Source of the DNA: Alphaproteobacteria bacterium
Lineage (GTDB): Bacteria > Desulfobacterota > Binatia > UBA12015
NCBI GenBank assembly: GCA_017853315.1
Contig: JAFMJW010000010.1
Coordinates: 1-37,706, forward strand
Length of the DNA stretch: 37,706 nt
Direction of reading: 5' to 3'
The translations under genes and the position numbers were made by a program. Positions within the stretch are counted from its first letter, which is position 1; every line of letters starts with the position of its first letter. Of this stretch, positions 6,533-27,503 are shown piece by piece. Below the pieces are notes generated by a model, which worked only from the letters and a program-made list of their open reading frames with translations, searched no databases and was not told where the DNA came from.

Positions 6533-7297
6533 ATGGCGGGAGAGTGGTGGCGTCGGCTCCCGGCGGCCCAGCGCCGCGAGTACGAGCGAAGCGTCGCGAA
6601 GACCCACGTCGCGATCACGGCGGGCCCGGACCTGCGCGAGGTCGTGCTCGAGATCGAGCGGCACCTCGGGTCCGACGACCGCGCGGCCACCGAGCGCGCC
6701 TCCGCGAGACTCGTCGACCTCCTCTGCAGGAGGCTCGGGCTGCCGCGGGTGCGGGTGTCCGTCTCGGGCGTCCGACCGCGCGACCGTGGCGGCGAGTTGC
6801 ACGGCCTCTACGAGTCCGACGGCCGCACCCGGGAACTCATCACCGTGTGGATGCGGACCGCGCAGCGGCGCGACGTGGTCGCCGCGAAGACCTTCCTGCG
6901 GACCCTTCTGCACGAGGTCTGCCACCACCTCGACTTCTTCGGGCTCGACCTGCCGAACTCCTTCCACACCCAGGGCTTCTACCGACGCGAGTCGAGCCTG
7001 TACCGCGCCGTCACCCGGGGCACCCACCTCGCCGTCGTGCGTCGCGGCGTCCCCGGCACGCGGATCTCGCCCCCGGCGGGACGGCCCTCGCGGGCGGAGC
7101 GGGAGGCTGCCGAAGTCCGAGAACTCCAGGCGGAGGTCGACCGCGCCGCGCGGAGCCTCGGGATCGCGCCGAGGCGCCGCAGCCCCTCAGGGACGGAGGA
7201 GCCGATCAGCGGGATCGAGCTGCTGAGCGCCGTCGCGGCGAGCATCACCGCGCGCAAGCGCCGCGACGAGGACGGCCCAGGCGGCGAGGGTCGCTAG
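6533..7297 (+). CDS. HExxHH zinc-metalloprotease-like protein
   Basis: 254 residues from ATG 6533, preceded by GGAAGG close to the start codon. The protein opens WWRRLPAAQRREYERSVAKT and has no signal peptide or membrane segment, so it is cytoplasmic. Residues 127-132 read HEVCHH, a zincin-type HExxH motif with a second adjacent His, in the context LLHEVCHHLDFFGLDLPNSF, followed by HTQGFYRRESSLY. The spacing resembles SprT-like or other short bacterial metallopeptidase-like proteins, but I cannot assign a named family. The C-terminal 60 residues are Arg-rich and low in complexity. The last 111 bases overlap, tail to tail, the 3' end of the OPT transporter gene on the other strand. A catalytic role rests on the HExxH motif alone. 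Confidence 0.7.
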   Translation: MAGEWWRRLPAAQRREYERSVAKTHVAITAGPDLREVVLEIERHLGSDDRAATERASARLVDLLCRRLGLPRVRVSVSGVRPRDRGGELHGLYESDGRTRELITVWMRTAQRRDVVAAKTFLRTLLHEVCHHLDFFGLDLPNSFHTQGFYRRESSLYRAVTRGTHLAVVRRGVPGTRISPPAGRPSRAEREAAEVRELQAEVDRAARSLGIAPRRRSPSGTEEPISGIELLSAVAASITARKRRDEDGPGGEGR

Positions 7298-9238
7298 CGG
7301 CTCGAAGGCGCCGAGCGCACCCGGCTCGCGCAGGCGGAGCGCGCCGTCGCCCGCGAAGATCACGATCGCCGCGGCCGCGATTCCCGCGAGCGCCTCGCCC
7401 GCGATCATGCCCGAGGCGACCAGCGTCGAGCCGCCCTCGCCCGCGTGCTCCTTCGACGGATCGGTGGGCTCGAACTGGATCGACTCGTGCGGCCGATGGA
7501 CCCGCGGGACGGCGTCGCGGCGGTCGAGCCATCGCCGGACGAGCCCTCCGAGGAGCAGCGGCGCCGTCGTCGTGACCGGCAGGTAGAGTCCGATCGCGAA
7601 CGCGAGCGGCGTCGCGCCGACGAAGGCGGCGGCGACCGCGAGGCCGGCGCCGACCGACATCGGCCCCCACGGGAGCTCGCCGCGGGCGACGCCTTCCACC
7701 AGCGTCGCCATGAGGCGCGCCTGCGGCGCCGGCAGCATGTCCGAGCCGAGCCCCCAGGCGCGGTGGAGCAGCAGCAGCACCCACCCGGCGCGCAGCGCGG
7801 CCGCGAGCGTGCCCGCCACCTGCGCGAGCTGCACGCGCGAGGGCGTCGCCCCGATCAACGCGGCGGTCTTGAGATCCTGCGAGAGGTCGCCGGCCAGCGC
7901 GATCGAGATCGCGACGACCGCGCCGACCATGATGCTCGCCGCCATCGCCTCCGGACCGACCCGGCCCATCGACCGGAGCAGCCACGCGGTCGCGAGCAGG
8001 GCGGTGATCGTCATGCCCGAGACCGGCTGCGAGGTCGTCCCGACGAGACCCACGATCCGCGCCGACACGATCACGAAGAAGATCGAGAAGGCGACCGCGA
8101 GGAGCGCCTCGACCAGCGAGAGGCCGAAGTCGGGCACGAGCCAGAGCGCAAGCAGGCAGCCGAGGACGCCGAGCGGCGGCACCCAGGCCGGCAGGTCCCG
8201 GTCGGTGCGCACGACGAGCGGCGACGGCGCGAGGTCGCGGCCGAGAGCCGAGCGCGCCGAGCGCACGGCTTCGCGCAGGGCGCGCCCGATCGTCGGCACC
8301 ACGCCGAGCAGCGAGATCAGGCCGCCGGTCGCGACCGCGCCGGCGCCGACGAAGCGCACGTGGGCCTTCCAGAGCGCGGTCGCGTCGAGCGACGCGGCTT
8401 CGGCCGGGATGCCGAGGGCGAGCCCCGTCGGGGTGCCGGCCAGCAGGTCGGCGAGCGGCACGAGCACGGTCCAGGCGAGGATCCCGCCGGCAGCCATGAC
8501 GGCCGAGATCCGCGGGCCGATCAGGTAGCCGGCGCCGAGGAAGATCGGCGTCAGGTCGAAGCCGATCGTCGCCTTGTGCAGCGAGGCGAAGGTCCAGACG
8601 ACGCGATCGCTCCACAGCCCGAGCACCTGGGAGCCGACCAGGTAGGCGATCCCGAGGAGCAGCCCGACCAGGACCGGGCGCGCGCTGGTCCCGCCGCGGT
8701 CGCCCGCGATCAGCACCTCGGCGCACGCCGTTCCCTCGGGATAGGGCAGCGTGTCGTGCTCGTTCACGGTGAGGTCGCGCCGCATCGGGATCATCGAGAA
8801 GATCCCCAGCAGCCCCGCCGTCGCGCCCAGCAGGACGATCGTGCGGTTGGTCGGCTCGAGGTGCAGGAAGATCAGCGCGGGCACCGTGAAGACGACGCCG
8901 CCGGCGAGCGACTCGCCCGCCGAGCCCAGCGCGTGCACGACGTTGTTCTCGAGGATGGTCCCGCGGCGCAGGAGCCCGCGCAGCACCCCCATCGAGATCA
9001 CGGCCGAGGGGATCGAGGCCGAAACGGTCAGCCCGACCCGCAGCCCGAGGTAGGCGTTCACCATGCCGAAGGCGACCGACAGGATCGCGCCGAGCAGGAG
9101 AGCGCGCGGGGTGAGCTCGTCGGGCGAACTCCCCGTCGGGACGTAGGGAACCGGGCCGCGCGAACGCGGCGCGATTCGCGCGGCATCCTCCGAGCCCGCC
9201 CCGGAAGAGGCCGGCGCCGGGTGCGCGGGATCGCTCAC
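7187..9238 (-). CDS. OPT-family oligopeptide/metal transporter
   Basis: 683 residues from a GTG at 9238-9236 that overlaps the helicase stop (GTGA). The same frame stays open far upstream, but that stretch is antisense noise inside the helicase gene. After a 40-residue polar N-terminus the protein is a chain of about 14-16 hydrophobic segments. The first contains NAYLGLRVGLTVSASIPSAV (about 61-80), very like the opening of bacterial OPT proteins, and NEHDTLPYPEGTACAEVL matches the conserved NxxxLPFPxGxA motif. OPT proteins import oligopeptides or metal chelates by proton coupling; bacterial members are often uncharacterised, so the cargo is unknown. A hydrophilic insert (RPHESIQFEPTDPSKEHAG) lies before the last helices. 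Its 3' end overlaps the convergent metalloprotease-like gene by 111 bases. Confidence 0.9.
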   Translation of the reverse strand: MSDPAHPAPASSGAGSEDAARIAPRSRGPVPYVPTGSSPDELTPRALLLGAILSVAFGMVNAYLGLRVGLTVSASIPSAVISMGVLRGLLRRGTILENNVVHALGSAGESLAGGVVFTVPALIFLHLEPTNRTIVLLGATAGLLGIFSMIPMRRDLTVNEHDTLPYPEGTACAEVLIAGDRGGTSARPVLVGLLLGIAYLVGSQVLGLWSDRVVWTFASLHKATIGFDLTPIFLGAGYLIGPRISAVMAAGGILAWTVLVPLADLLAGTPTGLALGIPAEAASLDATALWKAHVRFVGAGAVATGGLISLLGVVPTIGRALREAVRSARSALGRDLAPSPLVVRTDRDLPAWVPPLGVLGCLLALWLVPDFGLSLVEALLAVAFSIFFVIVSARIVGLVGTTSQPVSGMTITALLATAWLLRSMGRVGPEAMAASIMVGAVVAISIALAGDLSQDLKTAALIGATPSRVQLAQVAGTLAAALRAGWVLLLLHRAWGLGSDMLPAPQARLMATLVEGVARGELPWGPMSVGAGLAVAAAFVGATPLAFAIGLYLPVTTTAPLLLGGLVRRWLDRRDAVPRVHRPHESIQFEPTDPSKEHAGEGGSTLVASGMIAGEALAGIAAAAIVIFAGDGALRLREPGALGAFEPLATLAAWAVLVAALARGDARRDGAQQLDPADRLLRP

Positions 9239-17421: not shown

Positions 17422-17798
17422 TCGCGCGGCGACGAGAAGGCTCCTCGTCGACCGCGGCATCCCCCGTTTCGCGATGGCGGCTCTTGGCGGGCCAGCTGCA
17501 ATTCGTGCGCGGGACCTACGCCTCCCGCGGCGGGAAGTCCTTCCTGTGCCTCTCCTCGACCCGGGAGCGCGACGGCGTGCGCAAGAGCCGGATCGTGCCC
17601 GAACTCTCGCCGGGCAACATCGTGACGACCCCGCGCACCGACGTCATGTACGTCGCCACCGGGCACGAACTCGTGGACCTGAAAGGCAAGTCCGTGCTCG
17701 ATCGGGCGCGGGCGCTGATCGGGATCGCACACCCGGATTTCCGCGAAGACCTCGAGCGGGCCGCATTCGAGCGACGGCTTCTCCCGCGACGCGCCTGA
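17418..17798 (+). pseudogene. Fragment of acetyl-CoA hydrolase/transferase (C-terminal domain only)
   Basis: A 126-residue open frame beginning with a GTG that overlaps the yifB stop (GTGA). From about residue 25 to 118 it matches the last part of acetyl-CoA hydrolase / 4-hydroxybutyrate CoA-transferase family proteins: GQLQFVRGTYASRGGKSFLC, SRIVPELSPGNIVTTPRTDV, DLKGKSVLDRARALIGIAHP and DFREDLERAA. Intact enzymes are roughly 430-630 residues, and the catalytic Glu domain is missing; upstream sequence in this frame is yifB and acylase coding DNA, so no hidden N-terminus exists. The usual TE-x-G motif reads TGHE, a further sign of decay. Either this is a truncated remnant of a lost gene or, less likely, a retained single-domain protein using the yifB overlap for translation. 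Confidence 0.75.
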
Positions 17799-17945: not shown

Positions 17946-18809
17946 ATGCACTCGACGACACCCCGGCTCGCCGCCCTCCTGTTCGCCAACGCCCTGCTCC
18001 TTCCGGGTCAGGCCCTGGCTCACAAGCCCTACTACAAGGCCTACCTGACCGACGTGGGCGGGCAGCGCAACGTCGCGCACGTGGAACTCGCGCCGACGCG
18101 GCAGGGACGCGTGAAACTGGAGATGAGCGAGCCGCTGCCGGGAGCCGGCACCGGTACGCTCGTCGTCACCGCCGCGCTGAACCGCGTCCCGGTCGCGCCG
18201 CTCACCTACGCGATCGACTCCCTGCAGGAGACGTGGCCGCTCGGGCTGGAAACCGCGAACCAGGACAAGGTCGAGATCCTCGACGTCGCGATCCTCGACG
18301 AGGCCGGCACCCCGTGGGGAAAACTCGGCACGGCCGGCCCCCCTCCGAACCAGAGCCTGCGCGGCAAGTATTCCTTCGTCGCTCCGCTCGTCTACGTCGT
18401 GGACACCGCGAGCGACGTCGCCTTCACGCGCGGGGGCGACACGATGCTGCTCCCCACGGGCTTCTGGACGGTCGGCTTCGACGCGCTTCGATCGCGTTCG
18501 ACCGGCGCGCACCTGAACGCCGTCGGGCTCTACGCCGAGATCGAGTTCCGCCGCAACGGCGGCCCGTGGGAGACGCAGTCGGTCGGTTTCGACGTGAAGA
18601 GCGGGAAGTCCCAGCCGAGCGGGCGACCGGGACTCCACTTCGGCTTCGCCCAGGGCGACGTGGTCGCGGTGAAGCGGGTCGAGGTCTTCGACCGGTTCGG
18701 CAACCTGTTCGCCAAGGTCGGCATCCGGATGGGCCTCGCCGGCAAGTACCGGGAGCGCCACGCCCTCGACACCTCGACCCCGATCGCGACCGGCGAACAC
18801 GACCACTGA
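17946..18809 (+). CDS. Secreted protein of unknown function, paralogue 1 (N-terminal His)
   Basis: 287 residues, ATG start. Residues 1-25 are a signal peptide ending QALA, and cleavage after it would leave a mature protein starting H26 (HKPYYKAYL). I do not recognise the family. The mature part is rich in predicted beta strand, has no cysteine, and ends with EHDH. It aligns without gaps over its whole 287 residues with the next gene, about 70 percent identical by eye, and identical over TGFWTVGFDALRSRSTGAHL-like and FDVKSGKSQPSGRPGL segments. Histidines kept in both are H26, H189 (GAHLNA), H272 (ERHALDT), H285 and H287. N-terminal His after signal cleavage is known in copper proteins such as CopC and LPMOs, so metal binding is possible but unproven. 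Confidence 0.85.
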   Translation: MHSTTPRLAALLFANALLLPGQALAHKPYYKAYLTDVGGQRNVAHVELAPTRQGRVKLEMSEPLPGAGTGTLVVTAALNRVPVAPLTYAIDSLQETWPLGLETANQDKVEILDVAILDEAGTPWGKLGTAGPPPNQSLRGKYSFVAPLVYVVDTASDVAFTRGGDTMLLPTGFWTVGFDALRSRSTGAHLNAVGLYAEIEFRRNGGPWETQSVGFDVKSGKSQPSGRPGLHFGFAQGDVVAVKRVEVFDRFGNLFAKVGIRMGLAGKYRERHALDTSTPIATGEHDH

Positions 18810-18925
18810 CCGGTCCGACCGGCCGCTGGCCCGGGACCGCGAGGCCCACGGGGGGCGGGCGTCCCGGGACATGGTTCGCGGGGCGCGGGCTTCGGCGCTG
18901 CGGCCTGCCGAATCGCCGAATTTCC

Positions 18926-18935
18926 TGCCTAGGCA
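18926..18935. promoter_or_regulatory. Perfect palindrome upstream of the second paralogue
   Basis: TGCCTAGGCA is a perfect ten-base palindrome in a locally AT-richer patch, 78 bases before the GTG of the second paralogue. It could be an operator. The 204-base gap (18810-19013) also contains GTCCCGGGAC at 18861-18870, but GC-only palindromes arise by chance in this genome. No clear promoter is visible. Confidence 0.3.
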
Positions 18936-19013
18936 AGCGCCGACACCCGCGCTATGGTCGCGGAACGTTCGGCGGCCCCGCGGCCGACCGGCCTTGCCCC
19001 CGGAGACCATCCC

Positions 19014-19877
19014 GTGCGCCCGTCGACGACCCGGCTTGCAGCCACGCTCCTGACCGCCGCCCTGTTCCTTCCGGCGACGGCCTTCGCTCACCGTCCCTAC
19101 TACCGGACCTACCTGGTGGACGAGGCGGCCACGCACAACGTCGCCTACCTGGAACTGAAGCCGACGGCGCAGGGGCGCGTGAAGCTCTACCTGAGCGAAG
19201 CGCTTCCCGGGAACGGCACGGGAACGCTCGTCGTCGACGTGCTCCTGAACCGCGTGGCGCTCGCGCCGCTCACCTTCTCGATCGACTCGGCGAAGGAGAC
19301 GTGGCCCCTCGGCCTGCCGACCAACAACCAGGACAAGCTCGAGATCCTCGACGTGAAGATCCTCGACGAGACCGGCGCCCCGTGGGCGAAGTGGGGCTCG
19401 GTCGGGCCGCAGCCGAACACGAACCTGCGCGGCAAGTACCTGTTCGTGTCGGCGCTCACCTACGTCATGGACACCGCGAGCGACGTGGCCTACACGCGCG
19501 GCGGCGACACGACGCTGCTTCCGAGCGGATTCTGGACGGTCGGCTTCGATGCGCTGCGGTCCCGCTCGACCGGCGCGCACCTGAACGCCGACGGCCTCTA
19601 CGGCGAGATCGAGTTCAGCCGCAACGGCGGCCCGTGGGAGACGCACTCGGTCCCCTTCGACGTGAAGAGCGGAAAGTCGCAGCCCAGCGGACGGCCCGGC
19701 CTGCAGTTCGGCTTCTCGCCGGGCGACGCGATCGTCGTGAAGCGGGTCGAGATCTTCGACAAGGCCGGCAACATGTTCGCGAAGATCGGCATCCGCATGG
19801 GGGCCCAGGGCCACTACGTCGAGCGCCACGCGCTCGACACGACGATCCCGCTGTCGACCGGAGAGCACGCCCACTGA
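19014..19877 (+). CDS. Secreted protein of unknown function, paralogue 2 (N-terminal His)
   Basis: 287 residues from the GTG at 19014, chosen over an ATG 60 bases upstream because it has GGAGA eight bases before it, gives a clean signal peptide (MRPSTTRLAATLLTAALFLP) and makes the protein exactly as long as paralogue 1. The signal ends TAFA, leaving H26 (HRPYYRTYL) as the mature N-terminus; the protein ends EHAH. Sequence and spacing follow paralogue 1 without gaps, so this is a tandem duplication with its own 204-base upstream region rather than an immediate operon overlap. Divergence is spread over the protein and conservation is strongest at 168-190 and 216-230. No domain recognised; likely periplasmic or extracellular. 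Confidence 0.85.
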   Translation: MRPSTTRLAATLLTAALFLPATAFAHRPYYRTYLVDEAATHNVAYLELKPTAQGRVKLYLSEALPGNGTGTLVVDVLLNRVALAPLTFSIDSAKETWPLGLPTNNQDKLEILDVKILDETGAPWAKWGSVGPQPNTNLRGKYLFVSALTYVMDTASDVAYTRGGDTTLLPSGFWTVGFDALRSRSTGAHLNADGLYGEIEFSRNGGPWETHSVPFDVKSGKSQPSGRPGLQFGFSPGDAIVVKRVEIFDKAGNMFAKIGIRMGAQGHYVERHALDTTIPLSTGEHAH

Positions 19878-25742: not shown

Positions 25743-27503
25743 ATGCACTCGAACCGATCGCTGCCCCGATTCGTCGTGGGACTCGCACTCGCGGGCGTCC
25801 TCGCCGCACCCGCGGACGGACGCGCCCTGGCGGCCGCTCCCTCCATCCCGACGGTCGCGAACGGGAGGTTCGAGATCCCGCCCGCGGACGGCGACGGCTC
25901 GACCCTGACCGTCGCGGGGCCGTCGGATTTCCGCTTCCGGCAGTCCTTCCCGACGGGAACGCCGCCCTCGATGCCGCTGCGGGATTCCTCGGACGCACCG
26001 CTCGCCGACGGCATCTACCGCTGGGAGGTGCTCGACGCGCCGCCGGTCTCGCCCGCGACGCGAGAGGCGCTCGCAGCCGCCCGTGCGGCCGGCGACGAGC
26101 AGGCGATCGAGCGCATCCGGCGCGACGGCCTCCTGCCCGCCGCCCCCGCGAAGCGCAGCGGGAGTTTCCGCGTCGTCGACGGCACCGCGGTCCTCCCCGG
26201 CGCCGCGGAGGGCTCGGACTCGCCACGGGACCCGGCCGCCCCGGAGATTCCGCTCGCCGCCACCGTGATCCCGAACGACCTCGTCGTGGACGGAAGCGCC
26301 TGCATCGGGATCGACTGCGCAGACCCCGAAATCTTCGGGTTCGACACGCTGCGGCTCAAGGAGAACAACACCCGGCTGAAGTTCCTCGACACGAGCGGGG
26401 CGCCGTTTGCGACCCACGACTGGACGCTCGAGGCGAACGACACCGCGAGCGGCGGACTCGACCGATTCTCGATCCGGGACGAGGACGCGGCGACCACCCC
26501 GTTCACCGTCGAGGGAGGCTCGCCCAGCGCCGCCCTCTACGTCGACTCGTCGGGCCGGATCGGCTTCGGGACCCTCGCCCCGGCCATGGCTCTCCACATG
26601 CTGAACCCGAACACGCCGGGGATGCGCCTCGAGCAGACCTCGGGCGGCTTCGGAACCTACACCTGGGACGTCGCCGGCAACGAGGCGAACTTCTTCGTGC
26701 GCGACGTGAGTGGGGGAAGCCATCTCCCCTTCAGGATCAAGCCGGGCGCCCCGACGAACAGCCTCTTCGTCGCCTCCGACGGCGGGGTCGGGATCGGCAC
26801 CCAGACCCCCAACGCCCCCCTTCACGTGGCCCGGTCGGACGGGAAGGCGGAGCTCCGGGTCGTCGAGGGCTCGGTCGTCAGCGCGTCGCGCACGCTGCTC
26901 ACGCTGCGAAACAACGGGCCCGTCCTGGTGAAGTACGCCGACTCGAGCACCGGCACGAGCTGGATCGTGAAGCAGGGCAACGGGGCCTTCGTGTTCTCCA
27001 ACGCGGCGAGCGGCCAGCAGGAGCTCAAGCTGAACAACGACACCTCGATCGAGATGGGAGCCTCCGGGGGCACCGCGCGCTTCCGACTCGACCCCGCGGG
27101 CAACGTCGCGATCTCCGGCACGCTCAGCCAGGGCTCGGATCGCGCGTCGAAGATCGACGTCGCGCCGGTCGACGCGGAGCAGGTCCTCGACAAGGTCGCG
27201 GCGCTGCCGGTCAGCACGTGGCGCTACCGGGCCGACACCGGGAGTGTCCGCCACATGGGCCCCATGGCGCAGGACTTCGCGGCGGCCTTCGAACTCGGCG
27301 ACGACGAGCGGCGGATCGGGCTCGGCGACGTGGGCGGGGTCGCCCTCGCGGCCGTGCAGGGCCTCTCGCGCCGCGTCGATGCGCGCGCGGAGGAATTGCG
27401 CTCGCTACGCCGTCGCAACGAGGAACTCGAGCGTCGCAACGCTGCACTCGAACGTCGGCTCGACACGCTCGAGCGCAGCCTCGCGCCGGCCTCGGGCGGC
27501 TGA
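25743..27503 (+). CDS. Exported tail-fibre-like protein with peptidase S74 chaperone domain
   Basis: 586 residues, ATG with AAGGAG six bases upstream. A signal peptide (about 8-30, ending GRALA) means it leaves the cytoplasm. After a unique region (30-180) come fibre-like segments with the repeated motif G-x-x-G-x-G-T-x-x-P-x-x-x-L-H: GRIGFGTLAPAMALHM (271-286) and GGVGIGTQTPNAPLHV (347-362). The C-terminal S74 intramolecular chaperone starts at SDRASK, with S465 and K470 in the Ser/Lys dyad positions of endosialidase-type chaperones, then MGPMAQDFAAAFEL, and ends in a coiled coil (about 535-580). In phage fibres this domain trimerises the shaft and then cuts itself off. Host-encoded relatives are common in Myxococcota-like genomes; role in adhesion or surface display is inferred. 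Confidence 0.88.
   Translation: MHSNRSLPRFVVGLALAGVLAAPADGRALAAAPSIPTVANGRFEIPPADGDGSTLTVAGPSDFRFRQSFPTGTPPSMPLRDSSDAPLADGIYRWEVLDAPPVSPATREALAAARAAGDEQAIERIRRDGLLPAAPAKRSGSFRVVDGTAVLPGAAEGSDSPRDPAAPEIPLAATVIPNDLVVDGSACIGIDCADPEIFGFDTLRLKENNTRLKFLDTSGAPFATHDWTLEANDTASGGLDRFSIRDEDAATTPFTVEGGSPSAALYVDSSGRIGFGTLAPAMALHMLNPNTPGMRLEQTSGGFGTYTWDVAGNEANFFVRDVSGGSHLPFRIKPGAPTNSLFVASDGGVGIGTQTPNAPLHVARSDGKAELRVVEGSVVSASRTLLTLRNNGPVLVKYADSSTGTSWIVKQGNGAFVFSNAASGQQELKLNNDTSIEMGASGGTARFRLDPAGNVAISGTLSQGSDRASKIDVAPVDAEQVLDKVAALPVSTWRYRADTGSVRHMGPMAQDFAAAFELGDDERRIGLGDVGGVALAAVQGLSRRVDARAEELRSLRRRNEELERRNAALERRLDTLERSLAPASGG

Follow-up and report, generated by a model that had tools for sequence, protein, structure and literature searches.

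The window analyzed here is a stretch of 37,706 nucleotides from a bacterium of the class Binatia. On its forward strand, two adjacent genes, gene 1 (copy a, positions 17946-18809) and gene 2 (copy b, positions 19014-19877), each encode a protein of 287 amino acids and are separated by an intergenic region of 204 bp (18810-19013). Gene 1 starts with ATG and was delineated from its open reading frame, its translation and its homologues; its GC bias across codon positions speaks for coding. For gene 2, which was delineated from its translation, the longest open reading frame with an ATG start begins at position 18954 and would yield 307 amino acids. A GTG codon at position 19014 was taken as the start instead, since it lines up in the alignment with the starts of gene 1 and of the homologue in another genome of the same genus (G001). 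Pairwise alignment of the two products yielded 202 identities over 287 positions (70.4%) with zero gaps, and the E-value of 2.6e-137 marks this similarity as homology rather than chance. Neither protein contains a cysteine, and their C-termini read EHDH and EHAH. These measurements bear out the initial annotation, which had described adjacent genes of equal length (287 residues) whose products are gapless, about 70% identical, free of cysteine and terminated by E-H-x-H. It had also given both genes upstream regions of about 200 bases, which holds for gene 2 (204 bp) but not for gene 1 (147 bp). Judged by eye, the alignment of these two upstream regions revealed no obvious similarity, and neither a sigma-70-like promoter nor a terminator-like site was detected in a scan of the 204-bp region.

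From the sequences, the pair looks like the product of a recent tandem duplication. The G001 genome contains a single homologue, and the gene order there is comM, a full acetyl-CoA hydrolase gene (440 amino acids), the homologue and a radical SAM gene. The corresponding order in the window is comM, a hydrolase fragment, the two homologues and the radical SAM gene. Synonymous divergence (dS) is 0.42 between the window copies versus 0.59-0.75 in comparisons with G001, and this lower value suggests that the duplication occurred after the split from G001 or that gene conversion took place. The protein tree instead groups copy b with the G001 protein (support 94/90). This grouping could be explained by a faster change in copy a. 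The dN/dS values are approximately 0.49 for copy a versus copy b and approximately 0.28 for copy b versus G001. A second, separate tandem pair of the family (L028 and L029, on contigs C15 of G447 and C114 of G446) belongs to another Binatia family and has a Uma2-like gene and nitrile hydratase genes in its vicinity. The hydrolase fragment in the window (17484-17798, forward strand) is a truncated acetyl-CoA hydrolase/transferase in which only positions 64-154 of the C-terminal-domain profile are left, apparently a gene that has decayed or been partly deleted beside the tandem duplication.

Searches with the window proteins, the tested relatives and a family profile returned nothing relevant from Pfam, NCBIfam or the PDB sequences. 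Even at a Pfam threshold of E<=10, no family was obtained for the window proteins and three of four tested relatives, while the fourth produced only a spurious viral hit below the cut-off. The suspicion raised from the letters alone, that no domain is recognizable and that the family may be undescribed, is therefore upheld by the profile searches: by sequence comparison, the family is undescribed and contains no known domain. Homologues were identified in 8 of the 14 genomes of the window's GTDB family, and a different contig of the window's own genome encodes a divergent third paralogue. A search of 148 genomes of the class yielded strong matches outside this GTDB family in a single genus (G446/G447), which belongs to another family. 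Among 395 sampled genomes of the phylum, only the window's own genome gave matches, and none came from the sampled genomes of the rest of the phylum. No homologue was found in plasmids and phages by tblastn or in viral contigs by pattern scans. A scan of GTDB contigs gave no match with a single protein as the query; with the alignment as the query it recovered two loci, both of them known relatives in the window's GTDB family. As far as searched, the family appears confined to the class Binatia.

Both products start with a putative signal peptide that was recognized by sequence inspection. In copy a (17946-18020) it ends in A-L-A and is followed by HKPYY, with A23 and A25 (or G) conserved in the alignment; in copy b (19014-19088) it ends in A-F-A, is followed by HRPYY and was detected by a heuristic signal scan. 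This matches the earlier reading of an AxA-like signal end directly before H26-(K/R)-P-Y-Y. Cleavage is predicted between A25 and H26, on the basis of inspection and the heuristic scan, and would make H26 (codons 18021-18023 in copy a and 19089-19091 in copy b) the N-terminus of the mature protein. The conservation of this residue extends beyond the pair to the full-length homologues. In an alignment of 16 distinct full-length family members, H26 is identical in all 16, down to approximately 25% identity, and it directly follows a signal-like A-x-A (once A-x-G) in every one of them; all of these relatives come from one bacterial class and their conservation in part reflects shared descent. Among the 230 well-filled columns of the mature part, just 12 are invariant across the 16 sequences. 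H26 occupies one of them and is the sole invariant histidine of the whole protein, while positions 27-40 all vary. The residue is also kept in both copies of each tandem pair, in the window as well as in G446/G447.

As a control for histidine at the +1 position, the heuristic signal scan was applied to 954 predicted genes from the window's genus, family and class. It returned 189 signal-like N-termini, of which 8 have a histidine at +1, and 6 of these 8 are family members. The 2 remaining hits, out of at most 183 signal-like N-termini outside the family, both look like membrane proteins; the scan is crude, copy a having escaped it, and the count shows only that histidine at +1 is uncommon here. 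A repeat-level profile additionally detected secreted relatives with a single repeat in other families of Binatia. These relatives lack the histidine at their mature start (for example ...APAAKQYQSSL, ...ATPPPAKLYKTSV and ...GTKYQTSL), which makes the invariant histidine a trait of the two-repeat clade. One relative in G039 (L030/L060) contains two repeats after ...GWAHHEDGDEE, with the mature start HHEDGDEEGG. This protein is full of His/Asp/Glu-rich linkers and is possibly also metal- or calcium-binding.

The mature protein consists of two homologous repeats of approximately 120 residues each. Comparison of the repeat-1 and repeat-2 profiles with hhalign gave an E-value of 2e-22, and HMM cross-hits reached approximately 1e-20. 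With boundaries set by alignment, repeat 1 and repeat 2 of copy a correspond to positions 18021-18338 and 18360-18743, and those of copy b to positions 19089-19406 and 19428-19811. An AlphaFold2 model of repeat 1 of copy b, calculated from an 8-row repeat alignment, contains eight strands and no helix (pLDDT 89.5, pTM 0.80), and repeat 1 is confidently predicted to be an 8-strand beta-sandwich. The full-length model is poor (pLDDT 61, pTM 0.44); its FnIII matches in Foldseek were disregarded, with TM scores near 0.2 and rmsd values above 14. Two pairs of conserved acidic residues are common to both repeats (D107/D238 and D118/D249), and D165, D179, E198, D216 and E246 are specific to repeat 2.

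Foldseek detected no significant match of the repeat 1 model in the PDB. In a VIA search, the top six structural neighbors were all Cu/Zn superoxide dismutases (SODs) or SOD-like (Z 7.2-8.0, rmsd 2.6-3.5 over 89-96 residues), a Z near 8 being stated as the noise level of models like this one. The alignment with the Cu/Zn SOD fold of 9m58 (Z 8.0, rmsd 3.3 over 93 residues) lies at this level, as do the other Ig-like sandwiches that follow the SOD entries. CopC, LPMO and DUF1775 structures are absent among the matches listed, an absence that carries no weight. These neighbors are what a divergent Cu/Zn-SOD-like enzyme would produce. We nevertheless consider such an enzyme very improbable, as the scores do not rise above noise, a single invariant histidine takes the place of a conserved set of histidine ligands, and no Pfam family, SOD included, was matched.

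The initial annotation had suggested that a metal is bound through the N-terminal histidine together with other conserved histidines. It had listed H26, H189, H272, H285 and H287 as common to both copies, and exactly these histidines are indeed shared by the pair. Across the 16-member alignment, H26 is borne out as a conserved residue, but H189, H272 and H287 occur in only three proteins (copy a, copy b and the same-genus G001 orthologue), and H285 is limited to the window pair. H272 and the terminal H-x-H lie in a C-terminal tail (18744-18806 in copy a, 19812-19874 in copy b) that the alignment identifies as genus-specific. This tail is present only in copies a and b and the G001 orthologue, whose protein also ends in H-x-H despite an indel in the tail. 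In the other 13 relatives it is missing or swapped for a Pro/Thr-rich sequence. The members from G003, G004 and G008 (L006, L007 and L008) carry long Pro/Thr/Ser-rich C-termini (PTPTPEPTP), as if tethered or extracellular.

A single metal site formed jointly by H26, H189, H272 and the C-terminal HxH would be in keeping with the retention of H189, H272 and H287 in these three proteins and of the terminal motif across the indel. Three related proteins are too few to tell selection from shared descent, however, the 13 remaining relatives lack these histidines, and the tail falls in the low-confidence part of the full-length model, all of which makes such a joint site improbable. Since H189, H272 and the C-terminal HxH occur in no more than three proteins, all of one genus, a site built from H26, H189 and HxH is not the mechanism of the family, and the alignment leaves room for it as a genus-level addition at most. 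H272 and the C-terminal HxH could form a second, weaker metal site in this genus only.

The invariant predicted N-terminal histidine suggests that a metal ion such as copper is held by the protein's own tip. With a probability that we place slightly above even, the window genes are recent tandem duplicates encoding a secreted two-repeat protein in which the amine and imidazole of H26 bind Cu(II) or Ni(II) in a mono-histidine brace like that of YcnI. Signal peptidase would cut between A25 and H26 and thereby free the N-terminal amine. A transition-metal ion, with Cu(II) and Ni(II) as the most likely candidates, would then be chelated by this amine together with the imidazole. In the absence of another conserved histidine, acidic side chains, carbonyls or water would complete the site, an arrangement resembling the mono-histidine brace of YcnI/DUF1775. 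The acids that could serve in this way are D107 and E110 in repeat 1 or D165, D179, E198, D216 and E246 in repeat 2. The protein would reside in the periplasm or outside the cell, and its likely role would be metal binding, trafficking or buffering outside the cytoplasm rather than catalysis. A more specific version, in which an undescribed, Binatia-only family completes the N-terminal histidine site of the first repeat with acids that possibly come from the second repeat (an inter-repeat site), is tentative and falls clearly short of even probability.

The proposal that H26 binds a metal draws on the invariance of this residue at +1 next to the variable positions 27-40, on its retention in every copy of the two tandem pairs and throughout the two-repeat clade while single-repeat relatives lack it, on the rarity of histidine at +1 elsewhere, on published families of this type that bind Cu or Ni and, as a borderline point, on the Cu/Zn-SOD fold of the best structural neighbors of repeat 1, whose model itself contains no metal. 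Several observations speak against it. No second ligand can be named, and D107, D118 and D249 belong to the acids common to both repeats, whose role may be structural. No tryptophan equivalent to that of YcnI is invariant among the 16 sequences. A metal-gene context is also lacking: no metal-handling gene was recognized adjoining the family members examined, whose neighbors include comM, acetyl-CoA hydrolase, a radical SAM protein, biotin genes, a two-component system and PhyH. An outer-membrane efflux protein with no known substrate is encoded two genes away from the G007 member. The window's genome contains separate CopC-domain genes elsewhere; periplasmic copper handling thus probably exists in this organism, which says nothing about the window pair. 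A search for methane/ammonia monooxygenase genes in the window's GTDB family gave no match, but the control was equally silent. Within the window, an OPT-family transporter gene (7187-9238, reverse strand) lies approximately 9 kb from the pair, with no link shown; some OPT transporters carry metal chelates. On the other side, positions 25743-27503 (forward strand) encode a protein of 586 amino acids whose N-terminus resembles a signal peptide and whose C-terminus is a Peptidase_S74 (endosialidase chaperone) domain, better known from the tail proteins of phages.

The lack of a clear metal-gene context speaks for the main rival, a metal-free secreted or surface beta-sandwich of the adhesin type that binds a polymer or a small molecule. 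Here, H26 would be needed structurally, for example to dock the N-terminus on the second repeat, or would serve secretion or processing. Two tandem Ig/FnIII/SOD-like sandwiches are a common surface architecture, the Pro/Thr-rich tails of the G003, G004 and G008 members are typical of extracellular linkers, and the histidine is absent from the single-repeat relatives. What a metal-free surface protein leaves unexplained is an invariant histidine exactly at +1 while positions 27-40 vary, at a place where histidine is rare among the other signal-like N-termini. We regard this rival as possible rather than probable.

Among known metal proteins, the Cu/Zn SODs are borderline fold neighbors of repeat 1 only. 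The family has no sequence match to them, is tandemly repeated and lacks conserved SOD ligand histidines; the His/Asp set that holds Cu and Zn in these enzymes was not found, the whole protein having one invariant histidine. CopC and LPMOs expose an N-terminal histidine by signal cleavage. The window family resembles CopC (PF04234) and the LPMOs in this predicted feature and in the beta-sandwich, but their histidine brace includes a second histidine, of which no conserved counterpart exists here, and the window proteins matched no CopC or LPMO profile in Pfam or NCBIfam.

A closer parallel is offered by DUF1775/YcnI, in which a conserved N-terminal histidine that follows signal cleavage binds copper in a mono-histidine brace (PMC8424229). 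By analogy, the likeness consists of a secreted beta-rich domain, a histidine directly after the predicted cleavage site as the only histidine ligand and a likely role in metal homeostasis. YcnI differs in its cupredoxin fold, glutamate ligand, conserved tryptophan, C-terminal membrane helix and copC/copD or PCuAC neighbors, none of which were seen in the window family, and the DUF1775 profile of Pfam did not match the window proteins. A tryptophan lies next to the metal in approximately 95% of DUF1775 proteins (PMC8424229), and none of this kind is invariant among the 16 family members.

DUF4198, DUF6702 and the anglerases (Ang-1/2) likewise carry a conserved N-terminal histidine after signal cleavage, and binding of Cu2+ or Ni2+ has been shown for them (PMC12537917). 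The window family shares with them secretion and the conserved, here predicted, N-terminal histidine; DUF6702 and the anglerases are reported to be beta-sandwiches (PMC12537917). The window proteins matched no Pfam family, and the anglerases, unlike the window family, are fused to HupE/UreJ permeases. The N-terminal histidine is present in 16 of 16 window family members versus 79% of DUF4198 and 65% of DUF6702, with the window set being far smaller and more closely related. The signal-strapping study demonstrated metal binding in all four N-terminal-histidine families that it characterized, with examples chosen by its authors (PMC12537917), and this record raises the prior for a metal-binding role. 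With a perfectly conserved H26, two repeats, no known domain and no second conserved histidine, the family provides a clean test of whether a terminal histidine alone marks a metal site, in Binatota, an uncultured lineage with scant functional data. Taken together with these analogies, the sequences indicate that the window proteins probably represent a variant of the metal binders already known to use an N-terminal histidine.
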